Source: Burkholderiales bacterium RIFCSPHIGHO2_01_FULL_63_240 (lineage in GTDB: Bacteria > Pseudomonadota > Gammaproteobacteria > Burkholderiales > Burkholderiaceae_C). From it: a stretch of 64,000 bases of DNA. The stretch lies in assembly GCA_001770725.1 (NCBI GenBank), contig MERU01000006.1:310001-374000 (forward strand). The letters run 5' to 3'. Below the pieces are notes generated by a model. That model saw only the letters and a list, made by a program, of their open reading frames with translations, did not search any database and was not told the DNA's origin. Positions 1,743 through 10,735 of the stretch are shown here, one piece after another; positions within the stretch are counted from its first letter, which is position 1, and each line of letters begins with the position of its first letter. The position numbers were made by a program, and so were the translations under genes.

Positions 1743-3914
1743 TCACATCTGCAGGCTGAGCTGCACGAAGATCGAGCGCCCCGCCATGGGCAGGTCGCCA
1801 GGGATCAGCACCGGGATGACTTCGCCGGGCGAATACAGGCTGGGCTCTTCGACCTTGGCGTCGAACAGGTTGCGCACCGAGGTGCGGAACTCCCACCCCG
1901 AAGACGAACGCGGCGAGCGCAGGGTCAGGTCCATCGTGGTCTGGTCGCGCACCGGCTCGCGGGTGTCGCCGGGCGGGCGGCGGCGGCCTGCCACGTGGTT
2001 GACCTGGCCGCTCCACTGCCAGCCGCTGTCCCAGCGCCAGTCGGCGCGGCCATACAGGTGGTGCCGGGGCGCATAGCCCGCATCTTTGCCACTGGTCTCG
2101 TCGATGGAGCGCTGATACGCGTAATTGCCCGACAGGCTCACGGCGTGGCTCAGGTCGTGGCGCGCTTCGAGCTCGAAGCCGCGGCCGTTCTGCTCGCCCG
2201 TGTTCTGGAACACCTGCGGGCTGCCTGTGGGCGCGATGATGTCGCGCATGCCGTAGCGGAACAGGCTGAGCTGCAGCAGGGTGTCGCTGCGCGCCTGCCA
2301 CGAGAAGGCCAGCTCGGTGGTCTGGATGGTTTCGGGCTTGAGGTCGGGGTTGCCGCGCAACACCGGGTTGTTGATGCTGTAGAGCTCCATGAAGGCCGGA
2401 GCGCGGAAGGCCCGGCCATGCAGCAGCTTGGTGGTCAAGTCCAGGCTCGTGTCCCAGACCAGGGCCACACGCGGGTTGGTGGTCGAGCCGACGTCGGAGT
2501 AGCGGTCGTGGCGCACGCCGGTGGTGAGCGTCCAGTCCCGCAGGAAGTTCCATTCGTCTTGCAGGATGAGGTGGTCGACCTTGCGGCGGTGGGGCTTGAG
2601 GAAGGAGTCGTCGACCGAGACCTCGACGACCGAGCCGTCCCCCAGCGGGGTGGGGGGGGCGCTCAGCGACAGCACGAAGTTCTTGTATTCCCGGGTGCGG
2701 TACAGGTTGAGGTCTTCGTGGCCCAGGCCGATGCTCACCGTGTGGTCGGACCAGCCATCGTAAGTGGCCATCACGGTGCCGCGCCACTGGCGCTCCCAGG
2801 TGTTGGGCGAGCCGCGCATGCCGTTGGGAAAGTTGCCGCCCCAGGCGCCTGCCGGGTACAGCAGCAGCGGGTCGTGCTGGGCCGTGAAGTACAGGCCGCT
2901 GAGGTGGGCCTGCAGGCGCCAGTCGGGACTCAAGGGCAGGTCGTCGAGCGCGAAGCTGAAGTAGCTGCGCTGCGTGCGGCCTTTGCTGGACGGGTCGAGC
3001 GAGCTGGCGGTGCCGCCGCCCAGGCCGACCTGGTCGCGGCCGAGGTGGCCCAGGCGGACCTGGGCGTGGCCCCACTTCAGGCTGAGCTGGCCATCGAGCA
3101 TGCGGTTGCCCATGCGCACCGAACCGGGTGCCAGGCTGGCGCGGCTGCCATAGCCTGCGTCGTACTGTGTCTGGGCGTCGGCGGCGATGGTGGGGTCGTC
3201 GCCGTCGGTCTGGGCGTGCTGCAGGTAGGCGGCCACCTCCCAGGGGCCCCATTGCCCGCCGTGCAGGGCCCAGGCGCTGCGGGCCTGGAAGCTGCCCACG
3301 CGCGCACCGACTTCGGTGCCCTGGATGTCCTTGGCGTCCTTGGTGACCAGGTTGATGACGCCGGAGTAGGCGTCGGCGCCATACATGGCCGAGCCGGGCC
3401 CACGGATGACCTCGACGCGGGCGATGTTCTCCAGCGGCATGCCGGCCCAGCCGTTGCCCCGGTTGCCGATGAACAGCATCGTCAGCGGCATGCCGTCGAG
3501 CAGGATCAGGGTCTGCGGGTTGAACTGGCCGTAGATGCCGCGGATCAGGTAGAGCGGGTTGTAGGCCTGCACGTTGCGGCTGACGTGCACGCCGGGCACG
3601 GTTTCCATCACCTCGTCGAGGTCGGTGGCGCCGATGCGGGAGATGTCTTCGGCGGTGACGACGCTGGCCACCGCCGGTGCGCGGCGCAGCGGTTGCGAGC
3701 GGCCGGTGGCGATGCTGACCTCGGGGCTTTGCATGACGACGCGGTCACCGAGCGAGGCGGCGAGCTCGTCTTCATCTCGGCCGGCCTGGGCCGTGGCGTG
3801 CGAGGCGAGCAGCAGGGTGAGCAGCGGCGAGCCGATCAGCAGGCATGCCCGCGCAATGGTTGAGACGCAGGGGCGCTGCAACTCAGAGCGTGGGCGATGC
3901 GTGCGATGACTCAT
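1743..3914 (-). CDS. TonB-dependent outer-membrane receptor
   Basis: A 723-residue receptor with a hydrophobic signal segment ending near residue 44 (HATAQA). The plug spans roughly residues 75-200, with SVVTAEDISRIGATDLDEV, a PGVHV turn, ILLDGMPL and the conserved IARVEVIRGPGSAMYGADA. The beta-barrel follows to the C-terminus, including NPDLKPE and FELEARHDL. It ends in Met rather than the usual aromatic residue. The start overlaps the stop of the hybrid kinase gene (ATGA), so it is the last gene of a sensor-receptor unit. The substrate is not visible; the ABC_sub_bind partner hints at a small organic ligand. It could be named as a siderophore or vitamin receptor, but nothing shows that. Confidence 0.92.
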   Translation of the reverse strand: MSHRTHRPRSELQRPCVSTIARACLLIGSPLLTLLLASHATAQAGRDEDELAASLGDRVVMQSPEVSIATGRSQPLRRAPAVASVVTAEDISRIGATDLDEVMETVPGVHVSRNVQAYNPLYLIRGIYGQFNPQTLILLDGMPLTMLFIGNRGNGWAGMPLENIARVEVIRGPGSAMYGADAYSGVINLVTKDAKDIQGTEVGARVGSFQARSAWALHGGQWGPWEVAAYLQHAQTDGDDPTIAADAQTQYDAGYGSRASLAPGSVRMGNRMLDGQLSLKWGHAQVRLGHLGRDQVGLGGGTASSLDPSSKGRTQRSYFSFALDDLPLSPDWRLQAHLSGLYFTAQHDPLLLYPAGAWGGNFPNGMRGSPNTWERQWRGTVMATYDGWSDHTVSIGLGHEDLNLYRTREYKNFVLSLSAPPTPLGDGSVVEVSVDDSFLKPHRRKVDHLILQDEWNFLRDWTLTTGVRHDRYSDVGSTTNPRVALVWDTSLDLTTKLLHGRAFRAPAFMELYSINNPVLRGNPDLKPETIQTTELAFSWQARSDTLLQLSLFRYGMRDIIAPTGSPQVFQNTGEQNGRGFELEARHDLSHAVSLSGNYAYQRSIDETSGKDAGYAPRHHLYGRADWRWDSGWQWSGQVNHVAGRRRPPGDTREPVRDQTTMDLTLRSPRSSSGWEFRTSVRNLFDAKVEEPSLYSPGEVIPVLIPGDLPMAGRSIFVQLSLQM

Positions 3915-6007
3915 GAGTTCTCTCCGGTCGGCGGCTGGGCTGGCGTGGGTGGTGGTCCGCCATCGGTCTCGCGGACCCAGTTCAGCCCCAGGGTCTGGCC
4001 GATCAGGTCGAGCAGCTCCTGGCGGTCGAAGGGCTTGGCCAGGAAGGCATTGGCACCCGACTGCTGGGCGTCCTGGCGGTGCTGCGCCGAGGCGTTGGCG
4101 GTCAGCGCGATCACGGCGATGTCCTGCGTGCCGGGCGTGTTGCGCAGCAGTCGGGTGGCAGCCAGGCCATCGAGCACGGGCATCGCCAGGTCCATGAGGA
4201 CGAGGTCGGGTGGACAGCGCTGGGCCAGTTGCACGGCTTCCTGACCGTCGGCCGCCTCGAGGGTGTCAAAGCCCAGCGGGCGCAGCATTTCGAGCAGCAG
4301 CTGGCGGTTGGTGGTGACGTCGTCGACCACCAGGACCAGCTTGCGCGGCCCGTCGTAGCCGATGATGAGTCGCGCCTGGGCGGCGGCGATCGTTTCGGCG
4401 TGAACCACGGGCAGGTTGAGGTCGAACCAGAAGCAGCTGCCTTCGCCTTCGCGGCTGTCGAGGTGGATGTCGCCGCCCATCAGGCGCACCAGCTGGCGGC
4501 TGATGGCCAGGCCCAGGCCGGTGCCCTGGGCGCGGCTGCGCGAGTCGCCCGCTTGCTCGAAGGGCTCGAAGATGCGCTCGCGGTCGGCCTCGCGCACACC
4601 CGGGCCGCTGTCGCGCACCGAAAAGCGCAGCGTCACCTGTTCGCCCACGCGTGTGCCCGGCACCGCCTCGATGTCGAGGCTGACCTGGCCGACCTGGGTG
4701 AATTTCAGTGCGTTGCCCAGGAGGTTGATGAGGACCTGGCGCAGGCGTTGGTCATCGACCAGCACGCCGTCGGGCACCGTGTCGGCGCAGCGGGTGAGCA
4801 GGCTGATGTCCTTTTGCTGCGCCTTGATGCCCAGCACGTTGTGGAGCTGCTGGGCCAGCTGGCGGGGTTGCACGGGCACCGGGTTGAGCGCCGTGTGGCC
4901 CGACTCGATGCGCGAGAGGTCCAGGATGTCGATGATCAGGCGCAGCAGCAGGCCGCCACTGTCGTGCACGGTCTGCACGATGTGGCGCTGACGCTCGTTG
5001 AGCTCGCGGTCCATCTGCAGGATCTGCGCATAGCCCAGGATGGCGTTGAGCGGGGTGCGCAGCTCGTGGCTCATGCGCGCGAGGAAGTCGGTCTTGGCCT
5101 GGCTGGCCACCTCGGCGCGCTCCTTGGCGGCCTGCAGCTCGAGCGTGCGCTCGCGCACCAGGGCCGAGAGGTTGAGCTGGTGGCGCTGCAGCTCGTCGCC
5201 CCGCTCCTGCAGGGCCGAGATCATGCGGTTGAAGGCGGTGGCCATGCGCTGCACGTCCTGCGGGCCTTGCACCAGGGTGCGCACCTCGGACTCGCCGCGT
5301 TCGGCGCGGAACATGGCCTGCGACAGCGATTGCAACGGGCGGCTCAGGCGTTGGCTCAGCCAGCGCAGCATGCCCAGGAACAGCACCGAGATCAGCAGCG
5401 AGGTGCCGACGTTGACCAGGAAGATGTTGGTGACGGTGTGCGCCAGCGTGGCCTTGCTGAGCACGACGGTGACCTGGCCCAGCCGTTCGGCCACGGCAGG
5501 CTCGACGTCGAAGGGCGTGCTGCGCGGCTCCGACCAGACGGGTGCGACCACGTACCAGGCGTGGTCGTCTTCGGCGGCGAGCTGTGGTGCGCGGTCCGCA
5601 CCTGGGGTGACCGAGGGCAGCTCCAGGGTCACGAAGCCGGTGCTGCCCTGCGAGGCCAGCAGCTTGTTGTCGGCGGTGCGCACCTCGATGCGCAGCACGT
5701 CGGGGAAGGCCAGGGTGGCCGTCATGGCCTCGCGCACGTTGTCCGCTGAGCCCGACAGCAGGGCCAGGCGGCTCTGCGCGGCCAGGCTGCTGGCGACCTG
5801 AAGGCTCTGGTCGAGCTGCTGGTTGCGGACCTGGTGGCTGGCTTGCCAGGCGCTGGCCAGCGAGGACAGCAAGGTCATGCTCAGCACGCCGACGGCGACG
5901 ACCACGGAGAGCTGCTGCTGGAAGGTCAGGCGCTCGGCCCATCGGGTGATGGGACGCACGAGCAAGGGGATGCGAACCGCTGTCATCTCATTGCTCCGGC
6001 AGGACAA
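3911..6007 (-). CDS. Hybrid sensor histidine kinase/response regulator
   Basis: A 698-residue inner-membrane kinase. Transmembrane helices near residues 33-55 and 195-216 flank a periplasmic sensor of about 140 residues. HAMP (about 215-270), a short coiled coil, HisKA with MSHELRTPLN (phospho-His near 314), and an HATPase domain with GLGLAISRQL follow. A C-terminal receiver from about residue 575 has VLVVDD, LVLMDLAMP (phospho-Asp) and the conserved Lys in AKPFD. No output domain follows, so phosphate probably passes onward or the receiver acts as a sink. It overlaps the upstream substrate-binding gene by 20 bases and the TonB receptor by 4, indicating tight coupling. The periplasmic partner probably feeds it the signal. 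Confidence 0.93.
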   Translation of the reverse strand: MSCRSNEMTAVRIPLLVRPITRWAERLTFQQQLSVVVAVGVLSMTLLSSLASAWQASHQVRNQQLDQSLQVASSLAAQSRLALLSGSADNVREAMTATLAFPDVLRIEVRTADNKLLASQGSTGFVTLELPSVTPGADRAPQLAAEDDHAWYVVAPVWSEPRSTPFDVEPAVAERLGQVTVVLSKATLAHTVTNIFLVNVGTSLLISVLFLGMLRWLSQRLSRPLQSLSQAMFRAERGESEVRTLVQGPQDVQRMATAFNRMISALQERGDELQRHQLNLSALVRERTLELQAAKERAEVASQAKTDFLARMSHELRTPLNAILGYAQILQMDRELNERQRHIVQTVHDSGGLLLRLIIDILDLSRIESGHTALNPVPVQPRQLAQQLHNVLGIKAQQKDISLLTRCADTVPDGVLVDDQRLRQVLINLLGNALKFTQVGQVSLDIEAVPGTRVGEQVTLRFSVRDSGPGVREADRERIFEPFEQAGDSRSRAQGTGLGLAISRQLVRLMGGDIHLDSREGEGSCFWFDLNLPVVHAETIAAAQARLIIGYDGPRKLVLVVDDVTTNRQLLLEMLRPLGFDTLEAADGQEAVQLAQRCPPDLVLMDLAMPVLDGLAATRLLRNTPGTQDIAVIALTANASAQHRQDAQQSGANAFLAKPFDRQELLDLIGQTLGLNWVRETDGGPPPTPAQPPTGENS

Positions 6008-6977
6008 GGTGGATGGGCTGGGCCGAACCTTCGAGGTCGAGTCCCAGGTGGCGTGCGGTGCGCACGTTGACGGCGGTCAGCACCTGACGCAGGGCCTGCA
6101 GCCCACGCGGTGGTGGCGCACCGCTCGACAGCGCCGACACCGCTGTGGTGCCCAGGTGGCGGCCGAGTTCGAGGTTGTCCGGGTAAAGCGCGAACAACGC
6201 GCCGCGCCGCACGTGCGCGACGTTGCTGGAGAACACGGGCAGGCCCTCGTCCCAGGCCGTGCGCAGCAGCCATGGCAGCACCACCGATTCGTCGACGGCG
6301 GTGGCGTCCTGGGGCAGCCACAGCGCGTCGCGCCGCACATTGAGCTGCCCCACCAGTTCCTGGTAGCGCTTGAGCGAGCCCTTGAGGTCGTCGCTTTCGA
6401 ACGCCAGCAGCTCCAGCCCGCTCTGGCGGGCGGCCTCACGCGCCAGCCGGATCAGCCAGTCGTTCTGGCGCGGGTTGTAGACGACGATGACGCGGCGCGC
6501 CTGCGGCACGAATGCCTTGAGTCGCGTGAACAGGATCTGCGGGTCGGGCGCGAGGCTGACCACGGTGCTGGACTGGCCTTCGCTCTCGGGCACGGACAGC
6601 ACGCCCGCGGCGATGACGGGCAGCCGGGTGTCGAATGCCGTGACGGCCTTCAGGCCGCTGCGACCCAGTGCGATCACGGCCCGCACGTGGCGGTTGCGCA
6701 GCTCTTCCGACAGGGATTCGGGGGCGGCCTCGCCGGCCAGGGGCAGGCGGACGATGCGCCCACTCGCGCGCTCTTCGATGCCTCGCACGATGGCGGCAAA
6801 CGCGCTGCGGTAGGGCTCGCCGATCTGGGGGTAGACCACGCCGATGAGGGCGCGGCCATCGTCATCGGCGGCCCAGCTGGTGGCGTGGGAGACGGCCATG
6901 CCCAGCAGGCCGCAGTGCGCCAGCTTGATCAGCTCCCGGCGTGTCAGCCTGGAGCGAATCGGACATGTTCCAGACAA
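5988..6977 (-). CDS. ABC_sub_bind-type periplasmic binding protein
   Basis: A 329-residue protein of the PF04392 family (solute-binding, related to TrpX). The N-terminus carries a twin-arginine-like export signal (TRRELIKLA followed by a hydrophobic run, cleavage near SWAA). The core shows LIGVVYPQIGEPYRSAF, RAVIALGRSGLKAV and RRVIVVYNPRQNDW, matching the two-lobe fold. No permease or ATPase lies nearby, so it more likely serves as a ligand sensor for the hybrid kinase whose gene it overlaps by 20 bases. The ligand is unknown. The ATG at 6977 is preceded by a 96-base gap to the DoxX gene, which probably holds the promoter for the three-gene unit. Confidence 0.85.
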   Translation of the reverse strand: MSGTCPIRSRLTRRELIKLAHCGLLGMAVSHATSWAADDDGRALIGVVYPQIGEPYRSAFAAIVRGIEERASGRIVRLPLAGEAAPESLSEELRNRHVRAVIALGRSGLKAVTAFDTRLPVIAAGVLSVPESEGQSSTVVSLAPDPQILFTRLKAFVPQARRVIVVYNPRQNDWLIRLAREAARQSGLELLAFESDDLKGSLKRYQELVGQLNVRRDALWLPQDATAVDESVVLPWLLRTAWDEGLPVFSSNVAHVRRGALFALYPDNLELGRHLGTTAVSALSSGAPPPRGLQALRQVLTAVNVRTARHLGLDLEGSAQPIHLVLPEQ

Positions 6978-7073
6978 GTCTCACCCCCGTGTGGCGGGCC
7001 CAGGCTTGCCCGATCGCCCCCATGCATACCCGGGGGTTGGCGAGGATGGTAGCGGATGCTTGCCTGCTGTGGA

Positions 7074-7595
7074 TCAAGGGTGTGTCTGGATTGCCGGGAG
7101 GGTGTCGTGGCTTTGCCTCACCAGGCGCCTGCCCAGCCAGGCGTCCAGCGACAGACGGCCCATGCCCTGCAGGAGGAGGGCCAGGATCATCAGCCCCAGC
7201 ATCAGCGGCACCTTGAAGCCCTGGCCGGCGTCGGACTCGATCTGGTTCCAGCCGGCCCAGCCCAGGTCGAAGTGCACCGTGTAGACGGCCACCCAGGTGA
7301 TGAACAGCAGGCCCAGCGCCGCCAGCCGGCCCGCCAGGCCCAGCGCCAGGGCCAGCCCGAAAGCCACTTCGCCGAACCCGGCGGCAGCCCAGTTGAGGTC
7401 GGGGCCCAGCCAGGCCAGCACGGCAGGGAAGTCGAGCCCCGCGAACCACTCGGGGGCGGTGAGCCCGGCCGAGAGCTTCATCCAGCCGGCCTGCACGAAC
7501 TCCTGGGCCACGAACAGCCGCAGCGCCAGCAGGCCCCAGCCGTCGGTGTGCTCACGTGTTTTGCACGCGATCGAGGTAAGCGAGGAACTCATCAT
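7074..7595 (-). CDS. DoxX-family membrane protein of bufferin-type operon
   Basis: A 173-residue membrane protein with four predicted helices (around residues 20-40, 68-88, 90-115 and 125-145). It has the DoxX pattern: ALRLFVAQEFVQAGWMKL, then GFGEVAFGLALALGL. DoxX proteins are standard partners in MNIO operons (HvfX/BufD position); a role in moving or redox-poising the metallopeptide is inferred. The start ATG at 7595 follows a GGAG six bases upstream and lies 44 bases inside the end of the DUF2063 gene. An ATG three bases later is an alternative. It is the last gene of the operon. Confidence 0.85.
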   Translation of the reverse strand: MMSSSLTSIACKTREHTDGWGLLALRLFVAQEFVQAGWMKLSAGLTAPEWFAGLDFPAVLAWLGPDLNWAAAGFGEVAFGLALALGLAGRLAALGLLFITWVAVYTVHFDLGWAGWNQIESDAGQGFKVPLMLGLMILALLLQGMGRLSLDAWLGRRLVRQSHDTLPAIQTHP

Positions 7596-7830
7596 GGAGG
7601 TCTCCGTAGAAGTGCGAGTCCCAGGCGGACTGGCGCACGAAGTCGGCGATCAGGGCGAGCCAGGCTTCTTCGCCCAGGCTTGCGCGCAGCTCGGGGTGGT
7701 GGGCCTCGATCATCTGGCTGGCACCCAGGTGAACGAGGTGGCGGTACACGCGCATGCCGGCTTCCGTGTGGCCTGTGGGCACCACGTCGCTGCGCCCCCT
7801 CACGTAGTCGTAGAAGTCGGCTTCAGGCAT
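7552..7830 (-). CDS. Short DUF2063 partner protein (BufC/HvfC-like)
   Basis: A 92-residue protein matching the N-terminal DUF2063 domain: GMRVYRHLVHLG, HPELRASLGEEAWLALIADF and HDEFLAYLDRV. In known systems DUF2063 proteins bind the MNIO enzyme and the precursor leader, and are typically 200-270 residues with a second C-terminal domain; here that domain is absent. The ATG at 7830 overlaps the end of the MNIO gene by 31 bases, and its own 3' end overlaps the DoxX gene by 44. There is no in-frame remnant of a longer gene, because the reading frame is used by DoxX in another phase. Assignment is good; the short length is unusual. Confidence 0.8.
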   Translation of the reverse strand: MPEADFYDYVRGRSDVVPTGHTEAGMRVYRHLVHLGASQMIEAHHPELRASLGEEAWLALIADFVRQSAWDSHFYGDLHDEFLAYLDRVQNT

Positions 7831-8585
7831 CGCAGTTCCTGGTTGATGCGGTCGGGGCCGGGCAGGTCGTTGTCCCACTCGAGCAGGATGGCCAGGCCGT
7901 GCGAGGCCTGCAGCCGGCGGGCCATGGCGGCGGTGTCGGGCTCCACCGGCTCGCTGTGGGTGTCGATGTGCAGGCCGAAGCGGGCATCGAACTCGTGGCC
8001 GGCGACGTGCAGGTAGCTCACGCGGCCCAGGTCCACTCGGGCGATGAAGCCGGCTAGATCGAGCCCGCCGTGGTTCTTGTGGTTGACGACGATGTTGTTG
8101 AGGTCGAGCAGGACCTGGCAGTCGGCGCGCTCGGCGACGGCGGCGAGGAAGTCGGCCTCGGGCATGTCGCAGCGGTTGGTGTACCAGGTGCTGTTCTCGA
8201 TGGCGATGCGCCGGCCCAGCACGTCCTGCACATGGCGGATGCGGCCTGCCACGCGGGCGACTTCGGCCGCCGTGAACGGGATGGGAAAGAGGTCGTAGAG
8301 CTGGTGGGCGTCGCCGCTGGTGGCGAGGTGGTCGGACAGGTGCAGCGCACCGATGTCTTCGGCCAGCTCGCGCAGGCTCAGCAGGAAGCCGCGGTCGATG
8401 GGGGCCGGGCCCCCGAGGTTCATGGACACGCCATGCAGGTGAACCGGGCGGCCGGATGCGATCAGCGCGTGCAGCGGAGCGCGCTCGCGTCGGATCCAGT
8501 TCTCGGAGACGACCTCGAAGAAGTCGGCCTCGATGGCCGGCATGTCCCAGTCGGTCATCTCGCGCCGGTAGCCCAGTCCCACCAT
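7800..8585 (-). CDS. MNIO-family (DUF692) peptide-modifying oxygenase, BufB/HvfB-like
   Basis: A 261-residue TIM-barrel enzyme of the multinuclear non-haem iron-dependent oxidase family. Metal-ligand motifs are present in order: FFEVVSENW, HLHGVSMNLG, LHLSDHLA, IENSTWY, LLDLNNIVVN, YLHVAGH and HIDTHSEPV. Family members convert Cys residues in ribosomal peptides to oxazolone-thioamide or 5-thiooxazole groups that bind copper or other metals. It lies between the small Cys-rich exported peptide gene and a DUF2063 gene, the standard context. The ATG at 8585 has AGGA nine bases upstream. The last nine residues (CLKPTSTTT) overlap the downstream gene. The peptide at 8633-8866 is the expected substrate. 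Confidence 0.9.
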   Translation of the reverse strand: MVGLGYRREMTDWDMPAIEADFFEVVSENWIRRERAPLHALIASGRPVHLHGVSMNLGGPAPIDRGFLLSLRELAEDIGALHLSDHLATSGDAHQLYDLFPIPFTAAEVARVAGRIRHVQDVLGRRIAIENSTWYTNRCDMPEADFLAAVAERADCQVLLDLNNIVVNHKNHGGLDLAGFIARVDLGRVSYLHVAGHEFDARFGLHIDTHSEPVEPDTAAMARRLQASHGLAILLEWDNDLPGPDRINQELRCLKPTSTTT

Positions 8586-8632
8586 GGTGGCGTGTCCTTT
8601 CAGTGCTGTTCAGTGTGCGGCACCAGCCGGTT

Positions 8633-8866
8633 TCACTTCTTCGAGCAGGAAGCGTCCTTCTTGGAGCAGGACGATTCCTTCTTGCCGCAGGAGGCTTCCT
8701 TCTTGCCGTCCTTGCCAGCTTCGTCCTTCTTGCCGCAGCTGTGTTCCTTGCCGCTGGTTTCCTTCTTGCCGCAGGAGCCGGCGCCGCACTTGGCGTCCTT
8801 TTCACCGGCCCAGGCGGTGGTGGCGATGACGGAGGCGGCGAGGGCGGCGATGGTCTTGATGTTCAT
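8633..8866 (-). CDS. Cys/Lys-rich exported peptide, probable MNIO substrate (BufA/HvfA-like)
   Basis: A 77-residue protein with a Sec signal peptide (MNIKTIAALAASVIATTAWA, about 20 residues). The mature part is almost entirely K, E, D, G, S and six cysteines: CGAGSCGKK, then HSCGKK, ASCGKK, SSCSKK, ASCSKK. This repeated S-C-(G/S)-K-K unit resembles the EGKCG-type repeats of HvfA and bufferin precursors but is Lys-rich and lacks that exact motif. It lies 47 bases before the MNIO gene on the same strand, so it is most likely the precursor that is modified on its Cys and exported to the periplasm to hold metal. The modification and the metal are inferred. Confidence 0.82.
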   Translation of the reverse strand: MNIKTIAALAASVIATTAWAGEKDAKCGAGSCGKKETSGKEHSCGKKDEAGKDGKKEASCGKKESSCSKKDASCSKK

Positions 8867-9118
8867 GATGGGATCCTTGCTTTGAAAAGTGAGGTGGATG
8901 TGATGTCAAAGGGCGGCACGGGTGTGCACGTTGCATATGTCGCCGCAAATCGGCCAACCTGACAAATGAATGTGTAACAGTCGGAATCGTCGCTTCTTCA
9001 GCTCAAACCAACGCACGTGAATGGGACGAACTGCCGGGGTCTTATGCCGCCTTATCCCGCTTGCTGGCAGGTGGGGTCAAAGCGGACAATGGGGTCCCCA
9101 CCTTGAACACCTCAGCGC
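8867..9118. promoter_or_regulatory. Divergent control region between precursor peptide and HDOD genes
   Basis: A 252-base gap between divergent genes, more AT-rich than its flanks. It must hold the promoter of the metallopeptide operon and of the HDOD-GAF gene. Near the HDOD start, GGTGGGG (9070-9076) and CCCCACC (9096-9102) could pair as a leader hairpin; no Shine-Dalgarno is obvious before 9119. I could not assign -35/-10 boxes or a metal-responsive operator with confidence. Confidence 0.4.
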
Positions 9119-10735
9119 ATGAGTTCCACCCCCGCTGACCAGGACGGCGCCACCGTCGACGCCGACGTCACGCTGGCCTACCTCCTGCGCCGCATGCGCA
9201 GCAAGAGCGACTTCCCGGCGCTGTCGGCCTCGGTGGCGCGGGTGCAGGCCTTGTCCGAGTCGGAAACCGACAGCCTGCAGGCCCTGTGTGACGAGATCCT
9301 CAAGGACGTGGCCCTGACGCAGAAGCTGCTGCGGGTGGTCAACACCGCCCATTACCGCCGCGCAGGCAGCGACCCCATCAGCACCATCTCGCGCGCTGTC
9401 AGCCTGATCGGCGTGGGCGGTGTGCGCAACCTGGCGCTGTCGCTGATGCTGCTGGACCACATGCAGGACCAGGGGCACGCCCACCAGCTCAAGCAGGCCT
9501 TCTTGCACACCGTGATGGCGGGCACCCTGGCCAGCGAACTGGCCGTCAACCCGCGCGAAGCCGAAGAGGTCTTCGTGGGGGCCTTGTTCAGGCGCCTGGG
9601 CTGGTTGCTGGTGGCTTTTTACCTGCCCGAAGACGCAGAGCAGATCCGCCAGCGTGGTGGCGAGCCGGGCCTGGCCACCGCCTCGGACAGCGCCCGCATC
9701 GTCCAGCAGGTGCTGGGCGTGGACCTGGAGGCCCTGGCCGACCACGTGGGCCGCGAATGGGGTCTGCCGGCGTCGCTGCTGGCGTGCATGCGCTCGCCCG
9801 GCGAAGCCGTGCCCTCGCATTCGCTGGCCGGCCACCCCAGCCGCGTGCACTGGCTGGCCAGCTTGGCCCAATCGGCCTCTGACGCCATGCTGCACACCGA
9901 ACCGGCTCACCTGGGCGATGCGCTGCGCAAGCTGCAGCGTCGCTACCAGACCGCGCTTGGCCTGGAGGGTGAAGTGCTGCAGGAGGCCGCCGGGCGCTCG
10001 CGCCAGCGCCTGACCGACCTCACGCGCGCGCTCAGCCTGTCGGTGCCCGCGGCCTCGCCTGCCGAGCGCCTGCTTGACCTGTACTACGTCGACGCGCCCA
10101 ACGACGGCCAGGACGCCGATGCCACCCCGGGCGAGCTCGCCGACGAGGTCGAGCTCAGCGCCCTGAACCAGGTGGCCGTGGACCCGGTGATGAACCGCGA
10201 AGCCATCCTCACCCACGGCATCCAGGACATCACCAACACCCTGGTCGAGTCGTTCAAGCTCCAGACCGTGCTGAACATGGTGCTGGAGACCATCTGGCGT
10301 GGCCTGGGCGCCCGCCGCATCATCTTCTGCCTGCGCGACGCCAAGACCAACGAGCTGGTGGGCCGGCTGGGGCTGGGCGAAGGCGCCGACGCGCTCAAGG
10401 CGGCCTTTCACATCAGCCTGAACGTGCAGCCCGGCCAACAGCCCGACCTGTTCGCCGCCGTGTGCCACCGCAACGTCGACACCCTGATCGCCGACGCCAG
10501 CGTGGCGGCCGTGGTGCGCCTGCTGCCCGGCTGGTTCCAGACCCACGTCAAGGCGCCCACCTTCCTGGTGCTGCCGCTGTGGATGAAGCGGCCCAACCAG
10601 CCCGATGTGGTCCTGGGCATGATCTACGTCGATCAGGCAGACGCGGGCAGCCTGGTGCTGGACGAGCGCACCCTTTCGCTGCTGCGCACGCTGCGCAACC
10701 AGGTCATCATGGCCTTCAAGCAGACGGCGGGCTGA
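9119..10735 (+). CDS. HDOD-GAF domain signalling protein
   Basis: A 538-residue cytoplasmic protein. Residues about 25-230 form an HDOD domain (FPALSASVARVQALS, ILKDVALTQKLLRVVNTAHY, ISRAVSLIGVGGVRNLALS), a degenerate HD domain found in signalling proteins that usually lacks phosphohydrolase residues. Residues about 355-535 look like a GAF domain (NREAILTHGIQDITNTL, FLVLPLWMK, LGMIYVDQ, LSLLRTLRNQVIMAF). No DNA-binding or cyclic-di-GMP domain is present. Partners are unknown. It is divergent from the metallopeptide operon and 44 bases upstream of trmL. The ATG at 9119 lacks a clear ribosome site. Confidence 0.85.
   Translation: MSSTPADQDGATVDADVTLAYLLRRMRSKSDFPALSASVARVQALSESETDSLQALCDEILKDVALTQKLLRVVNTAHYRRAGSDPISTISRAVSLIGVGGVRNLALSLMLLDHMQDQGHAHQLKQAFLHTVMAGTLASELAVNPREAEEVFVGALFRRLGWLLVAFYLPEDAEQIRQRGGEPGLATASDSARIVQQVLGVDLEALADHVGREWGLPASLLACMRSPGEAVPSHSLAGHPSRVHWLASLAQSASDAMLHTEPAHLGDALRKLQRRYQTALGLEGEVLQEAAGRSRQRLTDLTRALSLSVPAASPAERLLDLYYVDAPNDGQDADATPGELADEVELSALNQVAVDPVMNREAILTHGIQDITNTLVESFKLQTVLNMVLETIWRGLGARRIIFCLRDAKTNELVGRLGLGEGADALKAAFHISLNVQPGQQPDLFAAVCHRNVDTLIADASVAAVVRLLPGWFQTHVKAPTFLVLPLWMKRPNQPDVVLGMIYVDQADAGSLVLDERTLSLLRTLRNQVIMAFKQTAG

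Follow-up and report, generated by a model that had tools for sequence, protein, structure and literature searches.

A probable MNIO peptide operon with a lone DUF2063 partner and a candidate ECF-type promoter in a Burkholderiales bacterium

Background

How is an exported peptide recognised and modified by an enzyme of the MNIO superfamily when the partner protein of that enzyme lacks the domain thought to hold the peptide? This question is raised by a four-gene operon in a 64,000-nucleotide stretch of the genome of Burkholderiales bacterium RIFCSPHIGHO2_01_FULL_63_240 (assembly GCA_001770725.1, contig MERU01000006.1, positions 310,001 to 374,000), herein called the window. The operon (8866-7074) encodes, in this order, a cysteine-rich precursor peptide, an MNIO, a DUF2063 protein and a DoxX protein. 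MNIO partners are thought to hold the precursor, through a recognition element (RRE) for ribosomally synthesised and post-translationally modified peptides (RiPPs), and to bring the iron cofactor to the active mixed-valent state (PMC13419390). DUF2063 has been described as fused to a full or partial RRE (PMC13419390), and PME-type 1 partners are described as a narrow size class, mostly 250-260 amino acids, with DUF2063-RRE architecture and tied to signal-peptide precursors (PMC12452194). In the present study, we conclude that the operon is likely to produce an exported, cysteine-modified and probably copper-binding RiPP of the captophorin/bufferin kind, on a separate branch of these systems. 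Judged by sequence, its precursor motif, enzyme clade, pocket residue and partner architecture all set it apart as a variant of its own.

Results

The features of the operon, in window positions, are as follows.

8866-8633, minus strand: precursor gene (77 amino acids, six cysteines)
8807..8866, minus strand: signal peptide, precursor residues 1-20, with cleavage after AWA judged by inspection of the sequence
8585-7800, minus strand: MNIO gene (261 amino acids; PF05114)
7830-7552, minus strand: DUF2063 gene (92 amino acids; PF09836), overlapping the MNIO gene by 31 nt
7595-7074, minus strand: DoxX gene, an HvfX-like membrane protein (173 amino acids; PF07681), overlapping the DUF2063 gene by 44 nt
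8964-8938, minus strand: candidate promoter of extracytoplasmic function (ECF) type, TGTCAGG-N15-CGACA, 71 nt ahead of the precursor start
8916..8927, minus strand: weak stem GCAC-ACCC-GTGC in the 5' leader, the window form of a stem present in relatives

The original prediction of a bufferin/Hvf-type MNIO operon has been borne out by the gene set and its domains. The four genes lie on the minus strand where they had been placed, and the Pfam matches exceed their cut-offs: 234.3 bits to PF05114 (cut-off 25), which places the enzyme in the MNIO superfamily, 51.1 bits to PF09836 (cut-off 27.2), the DUF2063 domain of PME-type 1 partners, and 55.5 bits to PF07681 (cut-off 23.6). Against the NCBIfam HvfX profile NF050144, the DoxX protein reached 76.6 bits, below the cut-off of 80. 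Beyond that prediction, the analysis revealed a partner without the RRE half, an ECF-type promoter and a sigma/anti-sigma pair elsewhere in the genome.

Relatives were recruited through exact 8-residue stretches of the window MNIO from a collection of one genome per species, which yielded 51 loci. In 50 of these (L034-L083), the MNIO is 56-94% identical to that of the window; L084, with an MNIO of another kind (40% identity), lies outside the set. Because recruitment was by exact stretches, mostly GDAHQLYD (44 loci) and HVAGHEFD (40 loci), with EWDNDLPG in 3, the 50-locus set leans to close kin. By title and tree, the loci belong to Burkholderiales families, Methylophilaceae, Azonexaceae, Zoogloeaceae, Neisseriaceae and a few Gammaproteobacteria (Oceanospirillaceae, Moraxellaceae and Pseudomonadales). 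Upstream of the MNIO, 47 of the 50 loci encode a homologue of the precursor (blastp E<=1e-3; weak in L079, 31 bits), and the three loci without it (L039, L068 and L082) begin at a contig end. These syntenic homologues ruled out the precursor as a chance open reading frame (ORF) or low-complexity artefact. DoxX is present in 43 of the 50 loci, three of them partial or weak. The distribution of the subfamily is patchy, since a class-wide MNIO-profile search (E<=1e-70, at most 7 first-look candidates scored per genome, with misses possible) found it in 1 of 369 genomes, the own one; a subfamily-like enzyme was recognised by reading of the sequences in 5 of 200 genomes of the family sample (G000, G137, G086, G057 and the distant G093); and 15 of 42 genus genomes have a strong precursor match (E<=2.1e-10, dropping the weak G200, G208 and G229, E 3e-4 to 8e-3, and the non-genus G241 and G267). 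Two side observations concern individual loci. In L079 (Pelistega indica), the DUF2063 frame has 53 amino acids and the precursor is odd, and the locus is apparently decaying or mis-sequenced; between precursor and MNIO, the Comamonas loci L055, L056, L072 and L075 carry an extra ORF of ~107 amino acids whose start is signal-like (about 2615-2965).

The window partner covers only positions 4-88 of the 237 in the NCBIfam HvfC profile (NF050145), and at 92 amino acids it departs from the DUF2063-RRE composition of PME-type 1. It was modelled as a five-helix bundle (predicted local distance difference test, pLDDT, 93.0). The match of the model to the DUF2063 half of 3dee was weak (Foldseek E 2.1, probability 0.80, 62 columns, root-mean-square deviation 1.9), as was that of the sequence to 3dee (E 0.48), and the identity of the domain therefore rests on Pfam. 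The short form recurs in the relatives: the distance from the residue aligned with the window methionine to the partner end is 91-102 codons in 49 of 50 loci, measured from the aligned start and not from a start codon, the broken L079 being the exception. Counted from the nearest start codon, partners have 82-101 amino acids in 47 loci (L076 and L080 have no start within 30 nt, and L079 is broken), and in L006, L007 and L008, obtained by whole-protein search, they have 113, 106 and 92 amino acids from the first in-frame start. NF050145 was matched by 39/39 scanned partners of related loci. Among MNIO loci of other types from the same family (L009-L033), 20 of 25 have a separate downstream ORF of partner size, 223-321 amino acids, as judged by length and not by Pfam; L010, L022, L027 and L030 have long single MNIO ORFs, and L016 has none. 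In the own genome, the HvfC profile and PF09836 gave no second HvfC match at E<=1, the window protein being the sole DUF2063 match. A frameshifted long HvfC was ruled out by the short form ending alike in 49 of 50 loci and by the overlap of the window DoxX gene with the partner end. As read from these sequences, the branch with the lone DUF2063 domain is an exception to the DUF2063-RRE architecture. The long MNIO frames of L010, L022, L027 and L030 (560-606 amino acids) are probably natural MNIO-partner fusions, likened here to the artificial HvfBC fusion made in PMC13419390; of the four, only L010 showed a DUF2063 match within the MNIO frame.

The window precursor carries KCGAGSCGKK, followed by SCGKK, SCGKK, SCSKK and SCSKK units. 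All six cysteines had been predicted to sit in S-C-(G/S)-K-K units; five do, and the first sits in KCGAG. In profile scans, no Pfam or NCBIfam family, DUF2282 included, was found for the window precursor, and DUF2282, by which Buf1 is defined, was not among the matches of 46 scanned precursors from related loci. At most 5 of these 46 aligned precursors matched any one family, and the best match (E 0.0028, to curli CsgA) is taken as chance. Cysteine positions were counted in 47 precursors, comprising the window and 46 loci (L079 dropped, near-duplicate loci counted, the precursor start of L057 broken). All 47 share an opening pair of the form CGAGxCxKK, with small variants, and then [DE]-x-(S/A/G)-C-(S/G/A)-K-K repeats. 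Position -3 is D or E at 244 of 304 cysteines, and position -1 is S, A, G or T at 252 and K at 46; position +1 is S, G or A at 295 and K at 4, none of them in the window, and positions +2/+3 are K-K (K-R and R-K included) at 242. Because few cysteines have K at -1 (1 of 6 in the window) or at +1, the family falls outside both the Lys-Cys (EGKCG) and the Cys-Lys classes of PMC13097082. The EGKCG register, acid-x-x-Cys-small, is kept. The precursor tails contain about 20-27% lysine (8 sequences).

The model of the window MNIO (pLDDT 90.8) has its best PDB fold match in 3bww (Foldseek E 6.8e-20), an MNIO 72.4% identical to HvfB (PMC13419390). By the 3bww alignment and its D-T-H and E-x-D motifs, window residues N163/N164, D208 and H210 align with N175, D242 and H244, the site-3 iron ligands of HvfB (PMC13419390), and D238 was tentatively equated with D249, the catalytic base of FonB (PMC13097082). 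All of these residues are invariant in 40/40 aligned MNIOs, as is a Trp before the catalytic Asp; alignments A1, A2 and A3 take in 39, 38 and 45 of the 50 loci. Immediately after the catalytic Asp, 48 of 50 loci have N and 2 have H, and this Asn was not the feature by which the loci were recruited. The corresponding residues, F250 in FonB and D251 in BufB2, contact the residues around the cysteine (PMC13097082). In the family sample, this position is F in two EGKCG-type MNIOs, D in most Cys-Lys types and A or E in some, and L010, of unclassified type, also has N. FonB F250A and F250D still made 5-thiooxazole (PMC13097082), suggesting that the site tunes selectivity and not chemistry. In a quick maximum-likelihood tree (LG+G4; L082 left out; long branch at L008), a branch with SH-aLRT 100 divides 53 MNIOs of this type (those of the window, L006-L008 and 49 of the 50 loci) from 25 other-type MNIOs of the same family; precursor classes in the tree were assigned by regular expressions. 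The prediction of a distinct precursor subclass thus finds support in this clade, in the motif and in the lack of a Pfam or NCBIfam match to the window precursor. A second PF05114 protein of the own genome (contig C9, L131 1928-2833; 301 amino acids, 55.9 bits) lies beside ExbB/ExbD/TonB-like frames.

The promoter pattern TGTCAGGWN{12,17}CGACW has 2 matches in the 4.1 Mb of the own genome, one ahead of the precursor and one ahead of msrP on contig C10, vs 0 in the reversed control. Within the genus, the pattern stands ahead of the precursor in 15/15 genomes with a strong precursor match (gap 45-124 nt), and ahead of msrP in the own genome and four others (G231, G215, G226 and G223); msrP was identified by Pfam in the own genome and G231 and by sequence alone in the other three, and msrQ was checked in the own genome only. 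In the genus, the element ahead of precursor and msrP has the form TGTCAGG-N15/16-CGAC, and the spacing from the 9-mer GTCAGGNNN to the -10 element is 12-13 nt in all 32 related loci with the exact motif. These 32 of 47 loci, compared with a background of 1 match in 594,758 bases, are not an independent test because the motif was first spotted by eye in the same loci; moreover, some genus genomes may be of the same species as related loci. A TGTAACC...CGTA form occurs in 5 further loci, all Methylophilaceae (background 0 in 594,758 bases). Of about 85 genus matches, the 15 precursor sites, the own msrP site and 10 sites chosen by eye were inspected, and the 11 non-precursor sites comprise 5 msrP, 1 thioredoxin (Trx)-like gene, 1 AhpC/TSA gene, 2 other ORFs (618 amino acids at 208 nt and 374 amino acids at 18 nt) and 2 with nothing convincing. 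The Trx-like (L167 719-1159) and AhpC/TSA (L169 735-1642) genes, each behind the pattern in one genus genome, are possible regulon members or chance matches. In addition, an inverted repeat just past the -10 element, which may be an RNA stem or an operator, was seen in the leaders (window, L037-L080), with arm sequences that differ between species. For the window by itself, the stem is not significant (p=0.324), but the leaders taken together exceed chance: the summed score (25/33 leaders) is 392 vs a shuffled mean of 208.8 and maximum of 284 (0/1000 reach 392), over a search range set after the folds had been looked at. A known RNA in the leader was ruled out by an Rfam gathering search of window 5500-10000, which gave 0 matches.

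Regulatory genes were found beside the operon in relatives. In 29 of 50 loci, DoxX is followed by an orthologue (49-68% identity) of an ECF sigma factor whose gene lies on own contig C10 (L172), and a small ORF with HxxxCxxC follows the sigma gene in 29/29. The own sigma factor matches PF04542 with 37.9 bits (cut-off 24), and the own anti-sigma candidate, with C-X25-H-X3-C-X2-C, conforms to the zinc anti-sigma (ZAS) motif C/H-X23-26-H-X3-C-X2-C as quoted in PMC7907618, the full motif having been checked in the own protein only. The arrangement in the 29 loci suggests that the ancestral operon was probably precursor-MNIO-DUF2063-DoxX-sigma-anti-sigma; in this genome, the pair lies on another contig than the operon. 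The exact promoter motif is present in 26 of 27 loci with adjacent sigma gene and precursor and in 6 of 20 without adjacent sigma gene, in a cross-table made by hand in which L068 and L082 lack upstream DNA and L053 and L076 lack downstream DNA. Caulobacter-type SigF/NrsF control was ruled out, a search of the own genome for NrsF at E<=0.01 having found none.

Downstream of the operon on the same strand (window 1743-6977), frames resembling a substrate-binding protein, a hybrid histidine kinase and a TonB-dependent receptor were noted by eye.

Discussion

Herein, we propose a mechanism for this operon, for which we infer the chemistry, the metal, the inducer, the match between sigma factor and promoter, the mode of recognition and the independence of an RRE. 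Periplasmic or thiol oxidative stress, from hypochlorite-like oxidants and perhaps copper, would inactivate the small zinc anti-sigma factor. The ECF sigma factor thereby freed would transcribe precursor-MNIO-DUF2063-DoxX from the TGTCAGG/CGAC promoter, alongside msrP(Q). The cytoplasmic MNIO, activated by the lone DUF2063 domain, would act on the cysteines of [DE]-x-S-C-(S/G) sites, with 5-thiooxazoles as the most likely products. Sec would then export the peptide, which in the periplasm might bind copper and/or consume oxidant. Since the partner is without an RRE, the substrate would have to be gripped directly, through its signal peptide, its conserved opening pair or its K-K repeats. In other words, a Sec-exported MNIO RiPP system may need no RRE, the lone DUF2063 domain tuning the iron cofactor while signal peptide or repeats are recognised directly; this part of the proposal is tentative, and we give it slightly less than an even chance. 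The original prediction had also raised a modification pattern or metal of its own, and here the evidence leans the other way, towards the same cysteine chemistry, given the invariant residues, the EGKCG register and the Hvf-like gene set and regulon.

Several results weigh against this proposal. D208, H210 and D238 were mapped through short motifs, and the second, C-terminal part of the alignment to 3bww falls short of significance. The window MNIO reaches 219.7 against the HvfB profile NF003818 (cut-off 360) and 202.9 against the BufB profile NF050167 (cut-off 310), and because it misses both cut-offs, isofunction with HvfB or BufB is not implied. FonB left motifs with a charged residue directly after the cysteine unprocessed (PMC13097082); in the window repeats, the residue at +1 is small and that at +2 charged, and Ser before and K-K after the cysteine may alter chemistry or register. 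Regarding regulation, 15 of 47 loci are without the exact promoter motif, and L038, L050, L054, L063, L074, L077, L078, L079, L081 and L083 carry neither promoter form. Of these 15, only L079 has an L127-type sigma gene after DoxX, the sigma queries being 6 of the 13 own sigma-70 region-2 proteins. Besides the 20 precursor and msrP sites, the 42 genus genomes have 65 further matches vs 41 in the reversed control, and single matches therefore mean little. Finally, because the own genome has no NrsF, the Caulobacter parallel discussed below is not one of homologous regulation.

The alternatives share parts of this evidence. An ordinary Buf_EGKCG/oxazolin-type captophorin operon, with drifted repeats and a partner that has shed a dispensable domain, and otherwise as in Hvf, would account for the acid at -3 and small residue at +1, for a first pair (DAKCGAGSCG) that resembles the FonA stretch EAKCGEGKCG, for the same four genes, for an ECF regulon with a methionine sulfoxide reductase (Msr) gene as in Haemophilus, and for a promoter with a -35 element and spacing like those of Neisseria sigma-E. 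However, the window MNIO falls below the HvfB cut-off and belongs to a clade of its own (SH-aLRT 100) that excludes both EGKCG-type MNIOs of the tree, N or H and not F follows the catalytic Asp, and K precedes only 46 of 304 cysteines; we regard this explanation as somewhat unlikely. A changed pocket and motif might instead lead the MNIO to a different modification of Cys (or of Ser or Lys) in a peptide for another metal, as the separate clade, the Asn in 48 of 50 loci at the position that reads the residues around the cysteine and the Trp before the catalytic Asp in 40/40 could indicate. The catalytic Asp and site-3 ligands are nevertheless invariant by alignment, and 5-thiooxazole was still made by FonB F250A and F250D (PMC13097082), so that such a change appears very unlikely.

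The remaining alternatives concern the role of the peptide and its recognition. If the chief role were oxidant scavenging and not copper binding, a thiol- and amine-rich sacrificial peptide would belong to a hypochlorite-type ECF regulon together with MsrP, Trx-like and AhpC/TSA proteins. The lysine-rich tails fit such a role, as do the promoter matches ahead of msrP in 5 genus genomes and ahead of a Trx-like and an AhpC/TSA gene in one each, and the RpoE2 regulon is induced by hypochlorous acid (HOCl; PMC7907618). Plain thiols, however, would need no MNIO, the catalytic positions checked are conserved, and the single-genome Trx and AhpC/TSA matches may be chance, given the 65 vs 41 noted above; scavenging as the chief role is thus improbable. 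RREs are short and poorly conserved, and one might be provided in trans, on a protein that has diverged beyond detection, the search of the own genome having covered only the NCBIfam HvfC profile and PF09836. Inside the window operon, however, the 44-nt overlap of DUF2063 and DoxX leaves no room for an RRE gene, and we give an RRE in trans a low probability.

If RRE independence is true, the two roles that have been proposed for HvfC would be separated naturally in this system. A branch with a lone DUF2063 partner across several bacterial families would allow these roles to be separated using natural proteins, and would test whether an RRE is needed when the substrate bears a Sec signal peptide. 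Moreover, in several lineages, operons for MNIO peptides are repeatedly found under ECF control alongside genes for methionine-sulfoxide repair. Therefore, we hypothesize that oxidant stress, and not copper alone, may be the natural trigger.

Among known systems, the Lys-Cys captophorins (oxazolin HvfABCX, fontiphorin FonABC and gonophorin; PMC13097082, PMC13419390) likewise have a signal-peptide precursor with cysteine repeats, an MNIO and a DUF2063 partner, and DoxX is common to the hvf operon and the window operon. The acid at -3, the small residue at +1, the aligned catalytic Asp and the site-3 ligands are also shared. In contrast, the window family has S/A/G/T before most cysteines and K-K after them, Asn instead of Phe after the catalytic Asp, a lone DUF2063 domain and a separate MNIO clade. 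The bufferins Buf1 (DUF2282) and Buf2 (6/12 Cys, Cys-Lys; PMC12452194) have the same A-B-C order, DoxX and a Sec signal peptide, whereas the window family has no DUF2282, only 4 of 304 cysteines followed by Lys, low-complexity repeats and a short partner. In the literature outside supplementary files, neither an SCxKK precursor family nor a stand-alone DUF2063 partner was found described. According to the main text of PMC12452194, adjamnio-3 (cluster 3 of the sequence similarity network) has a signal peptide, a predicted unstructured precursor, a PME-type 1 partner, a bufferin-like biosynthetic gene cluster and MNIOs in a small cluster of their own; that text gives no motif, partner size or regulation, and the SCxKK family and adjamnio-3 may be the same group.

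With respect to regulation, Caulobacter sigma-F controls DUF2282/DUF692/DUF2063 (Buf1-type) genes together with YedY (PMC3511200), which is a looser parallel; the own genome has a zinc anti-sigma candidate and no NrsF. In H. influenzae, HOCl-induced RpoE2/HrsE controls msrAB and a doxX/DUF2063/COG3220 cluster (PMC7907618), and the Neisseria sigma-E consensus is GTMAGBWTT-12/13-CGTCTAAH (PMC2893595). Both H. influenzae RpoE2/HrsE and Neisseria sigma-E/MseR likewise combine an ECF sigma factor and a small zinc anti-sigma factor with a regulon of MNIO cluster and methionine sulfoxide reductase. The Neisseria -35 element GTMAGBWTT resembles the GTCAGG(A/T)(A/T)T of the window family, and the 9-mer stands 12-13 nt from the CG of the -10 element in both, whereas the -10 element is CGTCTAAH in Neisseria vs CGAC in the window family and the reductase is MsrAB vs MsrPQ. 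By analogy, these two systems would be close parallels in logic to that of the window family, a likeness of regulation, kinship of the sigma factors aside.

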